Part shown: one piece after another, positions 58,772 to 63,738 of the stretch | Position numbering within the stretch: the first letter of the stretch is position 1 | Layout: each line of letters opens with the position of its first letter | DNA from: Thermomicrobiales bacterium | GTDB lineage: Bacteria; Chloroflexota; Chloroflexia; Thermomicrobiales; UBA6265 | NCBI GenBank assembly: GCA_019637585.1 | Contig: JAHBVL010000002.1 | Span: forward strand, 630,023 to 694,022 | DNA: 64,000 bases | Direction: 5' to 3' | Notes under the pieces: generated by a model | The model's input: the letters and a program-made list of their open reading frames with translations, nothing else | Databases searched by the model: none | Told to the model about the DNA's origin: nothing | Program-made: the position numbers and the translations under genes

Positions 58772-59413
58772 ATGACTGTCACCTATCCCCTCGCGACGAC
58801 GATCACCACTGAAGAGCAGCTCCGGGACGTGCTTGGCTATCCTGGCGAAGGAGCCGTTTCCAAAGAGCTGAGCGTCATCGACCGGCACGCGCGCTACTTC
58901 ATCGAGCGGTCACCATTCGCCCTCCTGAGCTCGGCCAATCGCGCCGGGCGCTGCGATTCGTCACCCAAAGGGGACGAACCCGGGTTCGTGAAAGTACTGG
59001 ACGACACCACCTTGCTCATTCCCGATCGGCCGGGCAACCGTCGTGGCGACACCCTGTCCAATCTCCTGGAGAACCCTCAGCTCGGCATTCTCTTTCTGAT
59101 CCCAGATGTCGAGGAAACGCTCCGGGTCAACGGCAGCGCGGCCATGACCACCGATCCTGATCTGCTGGCGATGTGCGAACACAGGGGAAAGGCGCCGAAA
59201 ATCGCCATCGTGGTCGACGCGCAGGAGGTCTATTTCCACTGCGCCAAAGCCTTCAAGCGTTCCGGATTGTGGAAACCCGACACCTGGATCGGCCGGGGCG
59301 AGCTGCCAACCCTCGGGCAGATCATGGTCGAGCAGATCAAGTTCGAAAACGGCATCTCCGGAGATGCGCTGAACTGCGAAATCGAAGAGGCGTACGTCAA
59401 GAACCTGTATTGA
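58772..59413 (+). CDS. FMN split-barrel protein, pyridoxamine 5'-phosphate oxidase family
   Basis: 213 aa. FIERSPFALLSSANRAGRCD then SSPKGDEPGFVKVLDDTTLL, IPDRPGNRRGDTLSNLLENP then QLGILFLIPDVEETLRVNGS, and EVYFHCAKAFKRSGLWKPDT match the MSMEG_1061-like branch of the family. Members bind FMN or F420, and substrates vary. It shares direction with the DUF3224 gene. No true PdxH residues can be claimed, so pyridoxal synthesis is unlikely. Confidence 0.9.
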   Translation: MTVTYPLATTITTEEQLRDVLGYPGEGAVSKELSVIDRHARYFIERSPFALLSSANRAGRCDSSPKGDEPGFVKVLDDTTLLIPDRPGNRRGDTLSNLLENPQLGILFLIPDVEETLRVNGSAAMTTDPDLLAMCEHRGKAPKIAIVVDAQEVYFHCAKAFKRSGLWKPDTWIGRGELPTLGQIMVEQIKFENGISGDALNCEIEEAYVKNLY

Positions 59414-59461: not shown

Positions 59462-59603
59462 GTAGCGGCGATCCCTTGTGGTCGGTCCTGAGCGAAGTCG
59501 AAGGATGGCCCGCAGGGCCATAACCACCTCGCCAGGCTTTGGCTCCGTTTCGCGCCTACGGCGCTTCACTCCACCACCGGTGGGGACAAGCCGCCACCGC
59601 TAC
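59462..59603. repeat. GTAGCG-ended intergenic repeat, copy 3
   Basis: The left 61 bases (59462-59522, GTAGCGGCGATCCCTTGTGG...) equal the reverse complement of 56594-56654 with one mismatch. The right end, read on the minus strand, is GTAGCGGTGGCGGCTTGTCC and resembles the left arm of copy 1. The TAG of this right end (59600-59602) is the stop codon of the histidine kinase gene. It lies between the convergent split-barrel and kinase genes. Confidence 0.8.
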
Positions 59604-61039
59604 GATGACGAGGTGTCTCGCACGTCCGGACAGACTGGAACCGCAATGCTGAACGTCGTGCGGCCCGGTTCGGATTCGGCGGTAATCGTGCCGCCGTGTT
59701 CCTCGGTGACGATCCTCCAGACGATGTCCAACCCCAACCCGGTGCCGCTTCCCTGCGGTTTCGTGGTGTAGAAGGGCTCGAAAATGCGAGGCAGCACCTC
59801 TTCCGGTATGCCCCCGCCCGTGTCGGTGATCTCGACAACGGCCCTATCTCCCTCTCGCCGGGTCGTGATCGTCACCCTGCCCGATTTGCCGGTGGCATCG
59901 GCAGCGTTATCCAGGATGTTCGTCCAGACCTGATTCAGTCCGCTCCCGTATGTGCGGACCGGCGGTATCGAACGATCGAAATCCTTGACGATGTCGATCC
60001 CCTTGAGCTGGTAGGCCAGGATCACCAGCGTGTTCTCGATTCCTTCGTGGATGTCGACGTCCTGCACCTGGGCCTGATCCCGGAATGAATAGGACTTCAC
60101 CGCCGCGACCAGCTGGGAAATCCGGCCCGTACTCCTGCTGACTACATCGAGCGATTCCTGAACGGAGAGCGACTCGGCGATCCAGCCGACTGCCGGTTCC
60201 AGCGCTTCCGCCGGCAACGCGGCCGCGAGGTCGGCCAGGCGATCGACCGTGACATCGGCCGACATGAGAGGCTGCGCGTACGACCAGGCCTCCGCAACCT
60301 GATGCTCCTCCAGCCAGGAACCGATCGCTTCCTCGCGGCGATTCGCGTCCATTGTCGATATCTCGGAAACGACGCGTCGCTGTTCCTCGCACCATGTGCC
60401 CAGCGACTCGATCGCCGCCCAGTTCTCCAGTGAAATCCCCTGCTCGAGCAGTTGTCGCTGCAGCGCGTCACGTGCCTGCAACGCCTGCGTGACGTTTCGG
60501 GCCGATCGGGACGCCGCGGCAGCCGGATTGTTCAGCTCATGCGACAACCCCGCTGAGAGCTTCCCCAGCGCAGCCATCTTTTCCTGATAGCGGGCTCGTT
60601 CCGCTTCCTCGAGCTTTCGATTCTCGGTTGCCAGGCGTTCGCTGTTGAGCCGCTCGGAAATGTCCCGGAAGAAGCCATGCGTGGCGATGAGCTGCCCATC
60701 GACGAACCGGCTGTGGGCGCTTCCTTCACAGGGGACCTTGCTGCCGTCCTTGTGACGGAAGTCGACCCGGATGTTCTCCAGATCGATTCCCTGCATCACC
60801 TGCATGAAATGGATTTGGCACTCCTCCAGCCTGTCCTGGTGAATCACGTCCCAGATGACCAGACCGGCCAGCTCATCTTCGCCATAGCCGAGCGCCTTGT
60901 GCCACGATCTGTTCACGAACTCGAATGTGCCATCCGGCCGGATCGACTGAATCAGGTCCGACGCACCCTCGATGATCTCCTGATAGCGTTGTTCCGATTC
61001 CTGCAAACGGGACGCCGGGCTGAATTGCTCGTCTTTCAT
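59600..61039 (-). CDS. PAS-domain sensor histidine kinase
   Basis: 479 aa cytoplasmic kinase with no membrane segment. A PAS domain covers about residues 13-130 (RYQEIIEGASDLIQSIRPDG, DGQLIATHGFFRDISERLNS). The H-box LGKLSAGLSHELNNPAAAAS puts the phospho-His at 167. The long helical dimerisation part is unusual for its length (about 150-330). The ATPase domain shows VWTNILDNAADATG, DTGGGIPEEVLPRIFEPFYT and GSGTGLGLDIVWRIV. AAGGAG precedes the ATG. It is divergent from the response-regulator/reductase fusion and is its likely partner. The last residues (CPDVRDTSSS) and the stop run into a repeat. Confidence 0.92.
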   Translation of the reverse strand: MKDEQFSPASRLQESEQRYQEIIEGASDLIQSIRPDGTFEFVNRSWHKALGYGEDELAGLVIWDVIHQDRLEECQIHFMQVMQGIDLENIRVDFRHKDGSKVPCEGSAHSRFVDGQLIATHGFFRDISERLNSERLATENRKLEEAERARYQEKMAALGKLSAGLSHELNNPAAAASRSARNVTQALQARDALQRQLLEQGISLENWAAIESLGTWCEEQRRVVSEISTMDANRREEAIGSWLEEHQVAEAWSYAQPLMSADVTVDRLADLAAALPAEALEPAVGWIAESLSVQESLDVVSRSTGRISQLVAAVKSYSFRDQAQVQDVDIHEGIENTLVILAYQLKGIDIVKDFDRSIPPVRTYGSGLNQVWTNILDNAADATGKSGRVTITTRREGDRAVVEITDTGGGIPEEVLPRIFEPFYTTKPQGSGTGLGLDIVWRIVTEEHGGTITAESEPGRTTFSIAVPVCPDVRDTSSS

Positions 61040-61087
61040 TTTGGATGCGCTCCTTCGAGCCAGACAGAGTTGCTATCATACCTGTAT

Positions 61088-61118
61088 CGAACGTGATTCG
61101 AGCGTTTGGTCTAAACGC
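61088..61118. promoter_or_regulatory. Inverted repeats in the divergent kinase/regulator promoter region
   Basis: CGAA-CGTGA-TTCG (61088-61100) and GCGTTT-GGTCT-AAACGC (61102-61118) lie side by side in the 132-base gap between the divergent kinase and response-regulator genes. They are candidate operator sites. TATGAT, read on the minus strand near 61073-61078, could be a -10 box for the kinase gene, without a good -35. Confidence 0.35.
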
Positions 61119-61171
61119 CCCAATGCACATTCCTTTGTCGCCCCAGCGCTCACCCCAAAGGCCAATCGACC

Positions 61172-62833
61172 ATGTCTGTTCCCTATATCCTGGCGGTCGA
61201 TGACGACGCCGACGTGCTTCGCGCCATCACCGGCGATCTCCGCCGTCACTATGGCAAGCAATTCCGGCTGCTCTACAGCTCGTCCGGGCAGGAAGCGCTC
61301 GAAGCGACAAAGGAAGCCAAACTCCGCAACGAGCCGATCGCGCTCTTTCTCGCCGATCAGCGCATGCCGGGCATGACCGGCGTCGAGTTTCTGACGCAAG
61401 CCCGCGACTACTTCCCCGAATCGAAACGAGCATTGCTCACCGCCTACGCTGATACGGATGCCGCAGTCCGGGCGATCAACGACGCCAAGCTCGACTACTA
61501 CCTGATGAAGCCATGGGATCCGCCGGAAGAACGCCTCTACCCGGTACTCGACGACATGCTCGACGAATGGCAAGCGTCGTTTCGCCCGCCATTTCATGGC
61601 GTTCGCATCGTGGGGCACCGCTGGTCTCCCGAATCGCACGAAATGCGCGACTTTCTGGCCCGCAATCAGGTTCCGTTCGCCTGGCACGAAACCGGAGCCG
61701 ACGAGCAGGCGGACGCGCTGCTCCAGGCCGCCGGTCTGGGTACCGATGTCCTGCCGGTCGTGATTCTGGACAACGGTGTGGTCATGACGCGTCCGTCGAT
61801 TCAGGACGTCGCCGACCAGCTCCAGCTCCGCCACAAAGCCGAATCCCCTCTTTACGATCTGGTCATCGTCGGTGGAGGTCCAGCGGGTCTGGCCGGCGCT
61901 GTCTATGGCGCGTCGGAAGGGCTGCGCACCTGCATCGTGGAGCGGCATGCCGATGGCGGACAAGCGGGAATGAGCTCTCGCATCGAAAACTATCTGGGAT
62001 TCCCACAGGGCGTCAGCGGCCAGGAGCTGGCCCGGCGGGCACGGGATCAGGTGGTGAAATTCGGCGCCGAACGGTTGCTGGCCCACGAAGCCTGCAAGCT
62101 GTGCCCCGAGCTGGGGTCCGTGGGCATCGAGATGAACGACGGCTCGCGGATTCTCGGACTGGCGGCGATCATCGCCACTGGGGTCAGCTACCGCCGGTTG
62201 GAAACACCGGGAGCCGACCGGCTCGCGGGCCGGGGGGTCTACTACGGCGCCGCTCGCGTCGAAGCCGAGTCCTACCGGGATCAGCAGATCTATGTGGTCG
62301 GCGGCGCGAATTCAGCCGGACAGGCGGCGGTCTTTTTCGCCGACCGCTGCCAGAAAGTCACGATGCTGGTGCGCGGCGACTCGCTCTCCTCCAGCATGTC
62401 CCACTACCTCATTGCCCAGATCGAAGCCATCCCGAACATCGACGTGCGCACCAACGTCTCCGTTGAAGAGTGCCTGGGAGACGAGCATCTCGAAGCGATC
62501 CGCATTCGCGACTCGGCCACGGGCGACATCGAAGAAGCGGAAACGCCCGGATTGTTCGTTTTCATCGGGGCCAAACCCTCGACCGAATGGCTAAAGGACT
62601 CACTTCTGCTCGATGACCGGGGATTCATCGTCACGGGCGCGGACATCCCCCTCGTCGACAAAAAGCGGTGGAACCTCGAACGGCCGCCCTTCCTCCTCGA
62701 AACAAGCGCACCGGGGGTATTCGCGGCAGGCGATGTCCGGCATGGATCCGGAAAACGGGTGGCAACCGCCGTGGGCGAAGGGGCCACCGCCGTGATGTCG
62801 GTCTGGCAATACCGGTCACACTACAACATCTAG
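61172..62833 (+). CDS. Response regulator fused to thiol-less glutaredoxin-like and thioredoxin-reductase-like domains
   Basis: 553 aa three-part fusion. Residues 1-130 are a receiver domain with acidic pocket DDD (10-12), phospho-Asp62 (LADQRMPG), Thr90 and Lys113 (LMKPWDP). Residues 143-220 look like a glutaredoxin (GVRIVGHRWSPESHEMRDFL), but the CxxC site is SPES. Residues 228-553 are a thioredoxin-reductase-type FAD/NADPH domain (LVIVGGGPAGLAGAVYGASE, GGANSAGQAAVFFA, GVFAAGDVRHGSGKRVATAV), in which the CATC redox site is replaced by GAAR (359-362). FAD and NAD(P)H sites look intact. I recall this architecture from actinobacterial genomes. The output may be NAD(P)H oxidation or redox sensing gated by phosphorylation; this is inference. 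Confidence 0.9.
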   Translation: MSVPYILAVDDDADVLRAITGDLRRHYGKQFRLLYSSSGQEALEATKEAKLRNEPIALFLADQRMPGMTGVEFLTQARDYFPESKRALLTAYADTDAAVRAINDAKLDYYLMKPWDPPEERLYPVLDDMLDEWQASFRPPFHGVRIVGHRWSPESHEMRDFLARNQVPFAWHETGADEQADALLQAAGLGTDVLPVVILDNGVVMTRPSIQDVADQLQLRHKAESPLYDLVIVGGGPAGLAGAVYGASEGLRTCIVERHADGGQAGMSSRIENYLGFPQGVSGQELARRARDQVVKFGAERLLAHEACKLCPELGSVGIEMNDGSRILGLAAIIATGVSYRRLETPGADRLAGRGVYYGAARVEAESYRDQQIYVVGGANSAGQAAVFFADRCQKVTMLVRGDSLSSSMSHYLIAQIEAIPNIDVRTNVSVEECLGDEHLEAIRIRDSATGDIEEAETPGLFVFIGAKPSTEWLKDSLLLDDRGFIVTGADIPLVDKKRWNLERPPFLLETSAPGVFAAGDVRHGSGKRVATAVGEGATAVMSVWQYRSHYNI

Positions 62834-63075
62834 TGTGCCGCCGGAGTGCCGAGCGAAACCGGTCTCCTGTCATAATCGTTCACTGCAATAAGAGGCACGC
62901 GAATGCGTCGTTCAGTGGTATGCTGTACGTACGCTCCGCTCGATAACCCGCATTCGATTGCATCGTACTGACGCCCGGTATCGCCGATCGTTCTCCTCTG
63001 GGTCTGGAGAACGAAAGACCGCCGGGTCGGGCAACTGTCGTGTTGCGGCGTGCCACACCGCAATGGGGGAAGGCA

Positions 63076-63738
63076 ATGGTATTCCGTCGAGAGAACAAGG
63101 GAGGCGAAGCCTTCCAGCGACAAATCAGCGCGCTCCGGCAACAGCTGGGCGGCTCCGGTGAAGACGAGATGTTCGAAGGGGACGAGGGCTCCATCGACGA
63201 AGCGTCGTACAACAATCCCGGCTACTCGCCTGGCGGCTACGAACCCGAGGATACGTCCTATCGCGACAGCGGCTATCGAGCCGAGTATGCCTACGAAGAG
63301 GAATCCGCCATCGAAAGCTACGCTGCTCCCGCCAGCGCCATTCCGGCCGCCGACGCGTCGATGACCGTCGTCAGCAACGACACCTCGTGGAAAGGCGAAG
63401 TCGACTCCGAAGGGTCGATGCATATCCACGGCAGGTACGATGGCGTTATCCGGGCCAGGGAAGATGTCTTCATCCTGGAAGAAGCGACCGTTTCCGCCGA
63501 AGTGCACGCCCGCAATGTGGTGATCGCGGGCAACTACAGTGGCGATGTCTGGTGCGAAACGCGATTCGAAGTGTTGCCGAGCGGCAGGGTGCAGGGAGCC
63601 GTGCGCGCTCCCGAACTGGTCGTCCATGACGGCGCCGTGATCAACGGCTCCATTCAGATGACCGATATCGAACCCGCTGGCTCCCGGCCCGCTGCGCCAG
63701 CGTCACTTGTGGCCCGGCGCGCCGAGTCACGTTCCTGA
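63076..63738 (+). CDS. Bactofilin-type polymer-forming protein (copy 1)
   Basis: 220 aa cytoskeletal protein. The right-handed beta-helix core (about 90-200) reads WKGEVDSEGSMHIHGRYDGV, IRAREDVFILEEATVSAEVH and ARNVVIAGNYSGDVWCETRF with LPSGRVQGAVRAPELVVHDG, the repeating G/V pattern of bactofilins. A long acidic, Tyr- and Gly-rich leader (about 30-85) and a basic tail flank it. ATG 63076 follows GGGGGAAGG. The 242 bases upstream contain an 8-bp hairpin (62989-63013) and no other gene. A second bactofilin follows 30 bases on. Confidence 0.88.
   Translation: MVFRRENKGGEAFQRQISALRQQLGGSGEDEMFEGDEGSIDEASYNNPGYSPGGYEPEDTSYRDSGYRAEYAYEEESAIESYAAPASAIPAADASMTVVSNDTSWKGEVDSEGSMHIHGRYDGVIRAREDVFILEEATVSAEVHARNVVIAGNYSGDVWCETRFEVLPSGRVQGAVRAPELVVHDGAVINGSIQMTDIEPAGSRPAAPASLVARRAESRS

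Follow-up and report, generated by a model that had tools for sequence, protein, structure and literature searches.

Is a response regulator that ends in a thioredoxin reductase-like flavoenzyme, and that has a CxxC at neither of the expected places, a decayed enzyme or a design in its own right? The question is raised by a single gene in the 64,000-nucleotide stretch of Thermomicrobiales DNA that was analysed here (the window). A first-pass annotation, made from the sequence alone, had proposed that the reductase output of this regulator lost both thiol centres while the receiver and the cofactor sites were kept, and that the same loss might be shared by homologues.

One genome per species was scanned, which yielded 304 relatives; the best 80 of the 304, which are 46-56% identical, were kept as close loci. 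A wider set comprises 206 ORF cores, from which duplicate cores and incomplete matches (query end <520 or start >260) were removed. The rows of this set are distinguished below by whether they carry a receiver (REC), a cyclic-nucleotide-binding (CNB) domain or neither.

Domains and cofactor sites of the regulator

The gene occupies positions 61172..62833 of the forward strand, starts with ATG, stops with TAG and encodes a protein of 553 amino acids, for which the ORF, Pfam and NCBIfam data give the order REC, glutaredoxin-like (Grx-like), thioredoxin reductase-like (TrxR-like). The receiver (aa 6-118; 61187..61525, +; Pfam Response_reg, 4.4e-13) is intact, as had been claimed: in the alignment it keeps D10, D11, D62, T90 and K113, i.e., the acidic pocket, the phospho-Asp, the Thr/Ser and the Lys of response regulators, the phospho-acceptor D62 being encoded at 61355-61357 (+). 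Pfam found no DNA- or RNA-binding output domain in the regulator, and a receiver followed by a TrxR-like domain assigns it to the REC-TrxB output class.

The Grx-like domain (aa 145-218; 61604..61825, +) was identified by TIGR02200, a profile search and a structural model. The NCBIfam mycoredoxin family TIGR02200 matches aa 145-218 at 8.5e-8, which is under its cut-off. The best PDB profile match is 2lqo (Rv3198.1 glutaredoxin, E 1.1e-9), which we take to be mycoredoxin-1, and a separate model of aa 139-224 (pLDDT 90.9) is closest to the glutaredoxin-type structure 3zit (Z 12.0, rmsd 1.7 over 77). The domain has a thioredoxin-type fold, of which P195, found in 134/136 REC-type rows, would be the cis-Pro.

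The TrxR-like FAD/NAD(P)H module (aa 228-547; 61853..62812, +) is supported by Pfam (Pyr_redox_2 at aa 228-537, 2e-32), by NCBIfam and by comparison of the model with TrxR 5vt3_A. The thioredoxin-disulfide reductase family TIGR01292 gives 222 bits over aa 228-547 and does not reach its cut-off of 343.45; AhpF gives 178.7 bits against a cut-off of 502.9, and the single Grx-like domain, being without CxxC, also does not fit AhpF. The full-length model has a mean pLDDT of 92.1 and a pTM of 0.77, and its TrxR part superimposes on 5vt3_A with Z 35.9 and rmsd 2.1 over 309. Two structures of Lactococcus lactis TrxR, compared with the window model alone, gave Z 35.8 and rmsd 1.9 (5mh4, flavin-reducing) and Z 31.3 and rmsd 7.6 (5mjk, flavin-oxidizing); the predicted structure thus matches the flavin-reducing geometry better than the flavin-oxidizing one.

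The claim that both cofactor sites remain proved correct, and these sites, like the fold, are those of low-Mr TrxR. The FAD dinucleotide motif GGGPAG (aa 234-239; 61871..61888, +), with G234, G236 and G239, and the NAD(P)H motif GGANSAGQ (aa 377-384; 62300..62323, +), with G377 and N380-S381-A382, are present and nearly invariant in the alignment. R401 (62372..62374, +), which stands where the NADPH 2'-phosphate motif of TrxR has its first Arg, is R in 135/136 REC and 15/16 CNB rows.

Loss of both thiol centres

The alignment shows SPES (aa 152-155; 61625..61636, +) in the position of the Grx CxxC, exactly as first read, and this is neither the CxxC nor the CxxS of glutaredoxins and mycoredoxins. 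The place of CATC, which in low-Mr TrxR lies beside the flavin, is taken by GAARV (aa 359-363; 62246..62260, +) with one inserted residue, the CATC of relatives aligning with G359-A360-A361-(R362)-V363. The earlier reading of this site as GAAR holds in that CxxC is absent and GAAR is found at 359-362, but R362 is the insertion, and in the alignment it is V363 that corresponds to the second Cys of CATC. The V363 position is T in 97/136 REC rows.

None of the 81 close REC relatives (80 loci and the window) has CxxC at either site, therefore the loss is not a matter of chance. Both CxxC are absent from 136/136 REC-type rows, window included, which come from Actinobacteria, Cyanobacteria, Hymenobacter, Acidobacteria, Chloroflexi, Deinococcus and others; the conserved design that had been suggested from actinobacterial homologues is thus found in multiple phyla. 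The CNB type has no CxxC at either site in 16/16 rows, the Grx stretch of one of them being incompletely aligned, and over both types the presence of REC or CNB coincides with the absence of both CxxC in 152/152 rows. Among the Grx-TrxR fusions that have neither REC nor CNB, 27 possess both CxxC, and the Grx CxxC alone is kept in two rows, L111 and L120 (the latter with CAAS). The set is completed by 14 plain TrxRs, which have CATC, and by 11 rows that are dithiol-less or unclear and have no recognised REC or CNB. One of these 11, L118, gave a regular-expression match to CxxC at the TrxR site that was read as false, the aligned text being a T-C-T-G-C stretch past the motif.

The sole CxxC of the window protein, CKLC (aa 308-311; 62093-62104, +), was considered as a substitute dithiol and rejected: it occurs at that place in 1/81 aligned proteins and is absent from the 80 relatives. 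Position 368 is Tyr in the window and Cys in 91/136 REC and 13/16 CNB rows, and in the relatives that have it Cys368 could be a redox thiol.

Flavin-site substitutions and a single origin

The dithiol at the flavin is not the only feature that distinguishes these proteins. R529 (62756..62758, +), a signature switch in the alignment, is R in 151/152 signalling members and Q in 27/27 CxxC fusions and 14/14 TrxRs (41/41). It lies within the motif RQ(A), which we take to border the flavin pyrimidine in TrxR, and its positive charge may tune the flavin. Other residues are also nearly fixed among the 152 signalling members (Q384 in 152, A365 in 148, S248 in 147, E364 in 145 and L275 in 142), and the CxxC fusions carry different residues at all six switch positions. 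The change of the TrxR site was thus not a simple loss, flavin-site residues having changed in step with it. The equivalents of F141/F142 of E. coli TrxR, presumably the thioredoxin-docking pair, are mostly P/F or F/F in CxxC relatives and variable, mostly non-aromatic, in the dithiol-less clade.

A tree of 124 rows, built by a quick method with the motif columns removed and SH-aLRT as the only support measure, unites the dithiol-less proteins in a single 86-row group (SH-aLRT 100), within which the CNB forms nest inside the REC forms. The first branch of this group is L111, which has no receiver, keeps the Grx CxxC and has a changed TrxR site with all six switch residues already in place; the remaining 85 rows group at SH-aLRT 96. 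The order of branching implies that the TrxR site was altered before the Grx site, and the weak point of this reconstruction is that the intermediate state is represented by one row, from the window's phylum. The Grx site requires one change on the tree and the TrxR site three as counted, one of them from the false match in L118; R529 requires 2 and Q384 3, and the more variable S248, L275 and E364 require 9, 11 and 7, respectively. A second match, L002/L222, reads YFAKRVE at the site and presumably resembles ferredoxin/flavodoxin-NADP+ reductases (FNRs); its branch is very long and its tree position was not used.

Homologues retaining both CxxC had been named in the first-pass annotation as the finding that would make the window copy simply degenerate. 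The sample does contain such homologues, namely the 27 Grx-TrxR fusions. They fall outside the 86-row clade, however, and a receiver is found in none of them, so the copy in the window is not just a degenerate one.

The partner kinase

Upstream of the regulator, on the opposite strand, lies a divergent, presumably cognate histidine kinase gene (59600..61039, -), encoding a PAS domain (Pfam PAS_9, 6.2e-10), a HELNNPA H-box with His167, a long insert and an HATPase domain (HATPase_c, 1.9e-28). According to the ORF coordinates, 132 bases (61040..61171) separate the two genes, and no sigma-70-type match was found in 60900-63100. A kinase of the HELNNPA type adjoins 76/81 close REC loci, window included, and is located upstream, downstream or, as in the window, divergently. 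In the wider set such a kinase is adjacent to 114/135 REC rows and to 0/27 CxxC fusions, 0/14 TrxRs and 0/16 CNB rows. A Pfam CNB domain is found in 76/82 partner kinases; PAS is found in the window kinase only. H167, E168, N170, N171 and P172 are invariant in 82/82 partner kinases, about 100 residues separate the H-box block from the next conserved block, and HisKA is matched by 26/82, the window copy being without a match. PADLOC gave 0 anti-phage system matches for the regulator and the kinase.

D62 is kept in 127/136 REC rows, and the 9 others include L198, an incomplete row that was left out of the Fisher test. The residue is present in 113/113 rows scored with a kinase and absent in 8/22 without one (Fisher p 1.4e-7, inflated by related rows); with phylogenetic correction, 3 independent pairs remain and the association is not significant. 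The totals of 114/135 and 113 differ by L017, which is scored with a kinase under one score rule and without it under another. Locus flanks are often about 1.5 kb, and some kinases may be missed; among 13 kinase-less loci examined with wider flanks none gained a HELNNPA-type kinase; in L088 the edge of the locus shows an incomplete ATPase-like frame. The eight receivers without phospho-Asp (L108, L114, L178, L211, L212, L215, L216 and L219) have no such kinase nearby and are possibly pseudo-receivers.

CNB-containing forms and ATII-TrxR

The CNB domain of the CNB reductases resembles the CNB domains of the partner kinases (best E about 1e-25 to 5e-12). It seems, then, that the same type of sensor reaches the same module either through a phosphorelay or through fusion, and that in the window the sensor of the kinase was exchanged, PAS standing in place of CNB. 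Receptors of cAMP carry a phosphate-binding Arg. In an alignment of 112 CNB sequences, which leaves out the window kinase and in which a few kinase rows cut at a fixed distance misalign, this Arg is missing from 16/16 CNB reductases, and of the kinase CNB domains, about 95 in number, 20 have it (rough counts), so the ligand of the reductases may be other than cAMP.

One protein with this combination of domains has been characterised biochemically. ATII-TrxR, described as having CNB and TrxB domains, is reported to bind FAD and to oxidise both NADPH and NADH; its reported substrates are DTNB and thioredoxin, the latter reduced with a kcat of 28.4 per s, and its redox centres were named as Cys206-Cys223 and Cys376-Cys467 (PMC6544261). 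Five plasmid records from Cupriavidus, including two from C. metallidurans, encode CNB-TrxRs without CxxC, whose Cys spacing, after an offset, fits Cys206, Cys223 and Cys376 of ATII-TrxR and does not fit Cys467. From this spacing we infer that ATII-TrxR is a dithiol-less CNB member, and its reported reduction of thioredoxin and DTNB points to a disulfide as the substrate of at least one relative. On two actinobacterial plasmids (Streptomyces and Rhodococcus; L156, 174-5302, and L184, 1-4569) the gene order is clpB, trxA, UBP zinc finger, CNB-TrxR.

Genomic context

In a clustering of neighbours based on a reduced ORF set, kinase and CNB proteins are the most recurrent and UBP zinc fingers are rarer. 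On a Streptomyces plasmid (L161, 3935-7418), REC-TrxR, kinase and UBP-type zinc-finger genes overlap on the same strand, the zinc finger following the kinase. In the window, the regulator is followed by a bactofilin-family gene (63040-63738, +; Pfam 4.4e-24) and an apparent second bactofilin that starts at about 63770 and runs off the window; beyond the kinase lies a gene for an MSMEG_1061-family FMN-dependent PPOX flavoprotein (58772-59413, +; 246 bits, cut-off 170). Elsewhere, L137 (3027-5876, -) is a 950-residue frame that ends in a Grx-TrxR fusion with both CxxC, preceded by about 550 uncharacterised residues.

The genome from which the window comes encodes one clear thioredoxin and 0 thioredoxin reductases over the TIGR01292 cut-off. 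The same holds for the reductase in 19/21 genomes searched, the window's own included, and its absence from this genome therefore says little about the regulator.

Proposed mechanism and alternatives

We propose, with a probability of roughly 55%, that the two genes form a two-component system with a phosphorylation-gated, dithiol-less flavin reductase as its output, in which electrons leave FAD without a disulfide relay. Phosphorylation of D62 in the receiver by the neighbouring kinase would alter how active the C-terminal FAD/NAD(P)H module is. This module would take up hydride from NAD(P)H, and reduced FAD would pass electrons directly to an outside acceptor, with neither CATC nor the Grx CxxC as relay; candidates for the acceptor are oxygen, quinones, small sulfur compounds and partner proteins. 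The Grx-like domain, with its Ser-x-x-Ser, may have been retained for docking or regulation, and in related proteins the input would come from a CNB domain, either fused to the module or located on the partner kinase. Phosphotransfer, gating and dithiol-free turnover are what we infer here; the proposal draws its support from the double loss in a single clade, the coordinated switches, the near-invariant FAD/NAD(P) motifs and the lost docking-Phe pair, from the kinase linkage, the pattern of D62 with kinase and the resemblance to kinase CNB domains, and from the 5mh4-like model together with the FAD binding and NADPH/NADH oxidation reported for the putative CNB member ATII-TrxR. It is weakened by the reported thioredoxin reduction of ATII-TrxR, by Cys368 in relatives, by trxA beside CNB genes in L156 and L184 and by the lack of significance of the D62/kinase association after phylogenetic correction.

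The first-pass annotation had argued that, with the dithiol missing, the normal route to thioredoxin reduction is closed to the protein; with thioredoxin reduction reported for a presumably dithiol-less relative, this is unproven, and oxidase, diaphorase and sensor remain alternatives for the reaction that is left. The partner kinase, the connection with CNB domains and the coordinated switches at the flavin site are additions to that annotation. It is conceivable, although in our view unlikely, that the protein has remained a thioredoxin or disulfide reductase in which reduced FAD, or another Cys such as 368 in relatives, reduces the disulfide. ATII-TrxR is reported to reduce thioredoxin and DTNB with NADPH or NADH (PMC6544261), and the match of three of its Cys to the CxxC-less Cupriavidus proteins, the frequency of Cys368 in REC rows and the adjacent trxA genes point the same way, as does the induction by polysulfide of SCO7298, the REC-TrxB of Streptomyces coelicolor; however, SCO7298 was not among the genes overexpressed in that study (PMC9952706), and no control for co-purified E. 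coli enzymes was seen in the passages considered of the ATII-TrxR study (PMC6544261). In the window protein itself, position 368 is Tyr and the flavin-site motif contains no Cys, and the docking-Phe equivalents are lost throughout its clade.

Alternatively, the protein may turn over little and act as a redox or NAD(P)H sensor, the flavin state or nucleotide binding, together with phosphorylation, being signalled to a partner. Such a role would suit a protein in which both catalytic centres are gone while the binding sites and the signalling domain are fully retained; a possible partner gene, for a UBP-type zinc finger, lies near 23/80 close REC loci, and receivers lacking D62 persist in 8 rows. 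A zinc-finger gene of this type is nevertheless absent from the window genome, Pfam found no DNA- or RNA-binding output in the window protein, and ATII-TrxR is reported to turn over, and we consider the sensor role doubtful. That the gene is merely a degenerate, non-functional thioredoxin reductase copy, as the loss of both CxxC and the score under the TIGR01292 cut-off might suggest, is highly improbable: the loss recurs in 136/136 REC rows across many phyla, the frame is open, the cofactor motifs are invariant, and the replacement residues and the kinase linkage are conserved.

Going beyond the phosphorylation-gated flavin reductase of the window, one can tentatively envisage, at somewhat below even odds, a widespread class of signal-controlled flavin electron-transfer proteins. 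It would have arisen once from a Grx-TrxR fusion, in which the flavin-site dithiol and pocket residues were replaced and the Grx dithiol was then lost as signalling domains joined; CNB-type control would act through kinase and receiver or through fusion, and the true substrate would not be thioredoxin, the proteins being widely misnamed. CNB forms carry the names thioredoxin-disulfide reductase or trxB in public annotation, and for the REC type the database name "thioredoxin reductase" probably misstates the function. If the dithiol relay is gone throughout, trxB-type names are wrong, and an electron-transfer reaction is under two-component or ligand control across many phyla.

Comparison with known systems

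The REC-TrxB architecture is already known, being listed as an output class in two-component censuses, which in the portions considered make no mention of lost dithiols (PMC9739842, PMC9953108, PMC5847659). Reports of the dithiol loss or of the correspondence between CNB and REC forms were not found in open-licence PMC texts. SCO7298 of S. coelicolor likewise combines REC with a TrxR-like domain and has the gene of its kinase, SCO7297, adjacent; it was named trxB3 in the polysulfide study (PMC9952706) and is up after acid shock (PMC2631018). The window differs from such systems in that its kinase is divergent and carries PAS instead of CNB.

The CNB "thioredoxin-disulfide reductases" of Cupriavidus, Rhodococcus, Deinococcus and Streptomyces, and by our assignment ATII-TrxR, have the same CxxC-less Grx-like and TrxR-like core. 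They differ in that CNB replaces REC, in the absence of a HELNNPA-type kinase beside them (0/16) and in Cys368 (13/16). The Grx-TrxR fusions (WCPDC-type plus CATC; within L119-L149 and L206-L210) share the domain order and about 33-42% core identity with the window protein, but keep both dithiols, have no receiver and carry Q at 529. With low-Mr TrxR the window protein has in common the fold and the FAD and NADPH motifs, whereas it lacks CATC, stays below the TIGR01292 cut-off and possesses the additional Grx-like and REC domains. A TrxR fold without CxxC also exists in the TrxR-type ferredoxin/flavodoxin-NADP+ reductases, such as the FNRs of B. subtilis, B. cereus and R. palustris, none of which, to our knowledge, has a receiver. 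The window model superimposes on B. cereus FNR2 (8c16_B) with Z 28.6 and rmsd 3.5 over 305, and, judging from the models, the window protein appears nearer to TrxR (Z 35.9) than to FNR.
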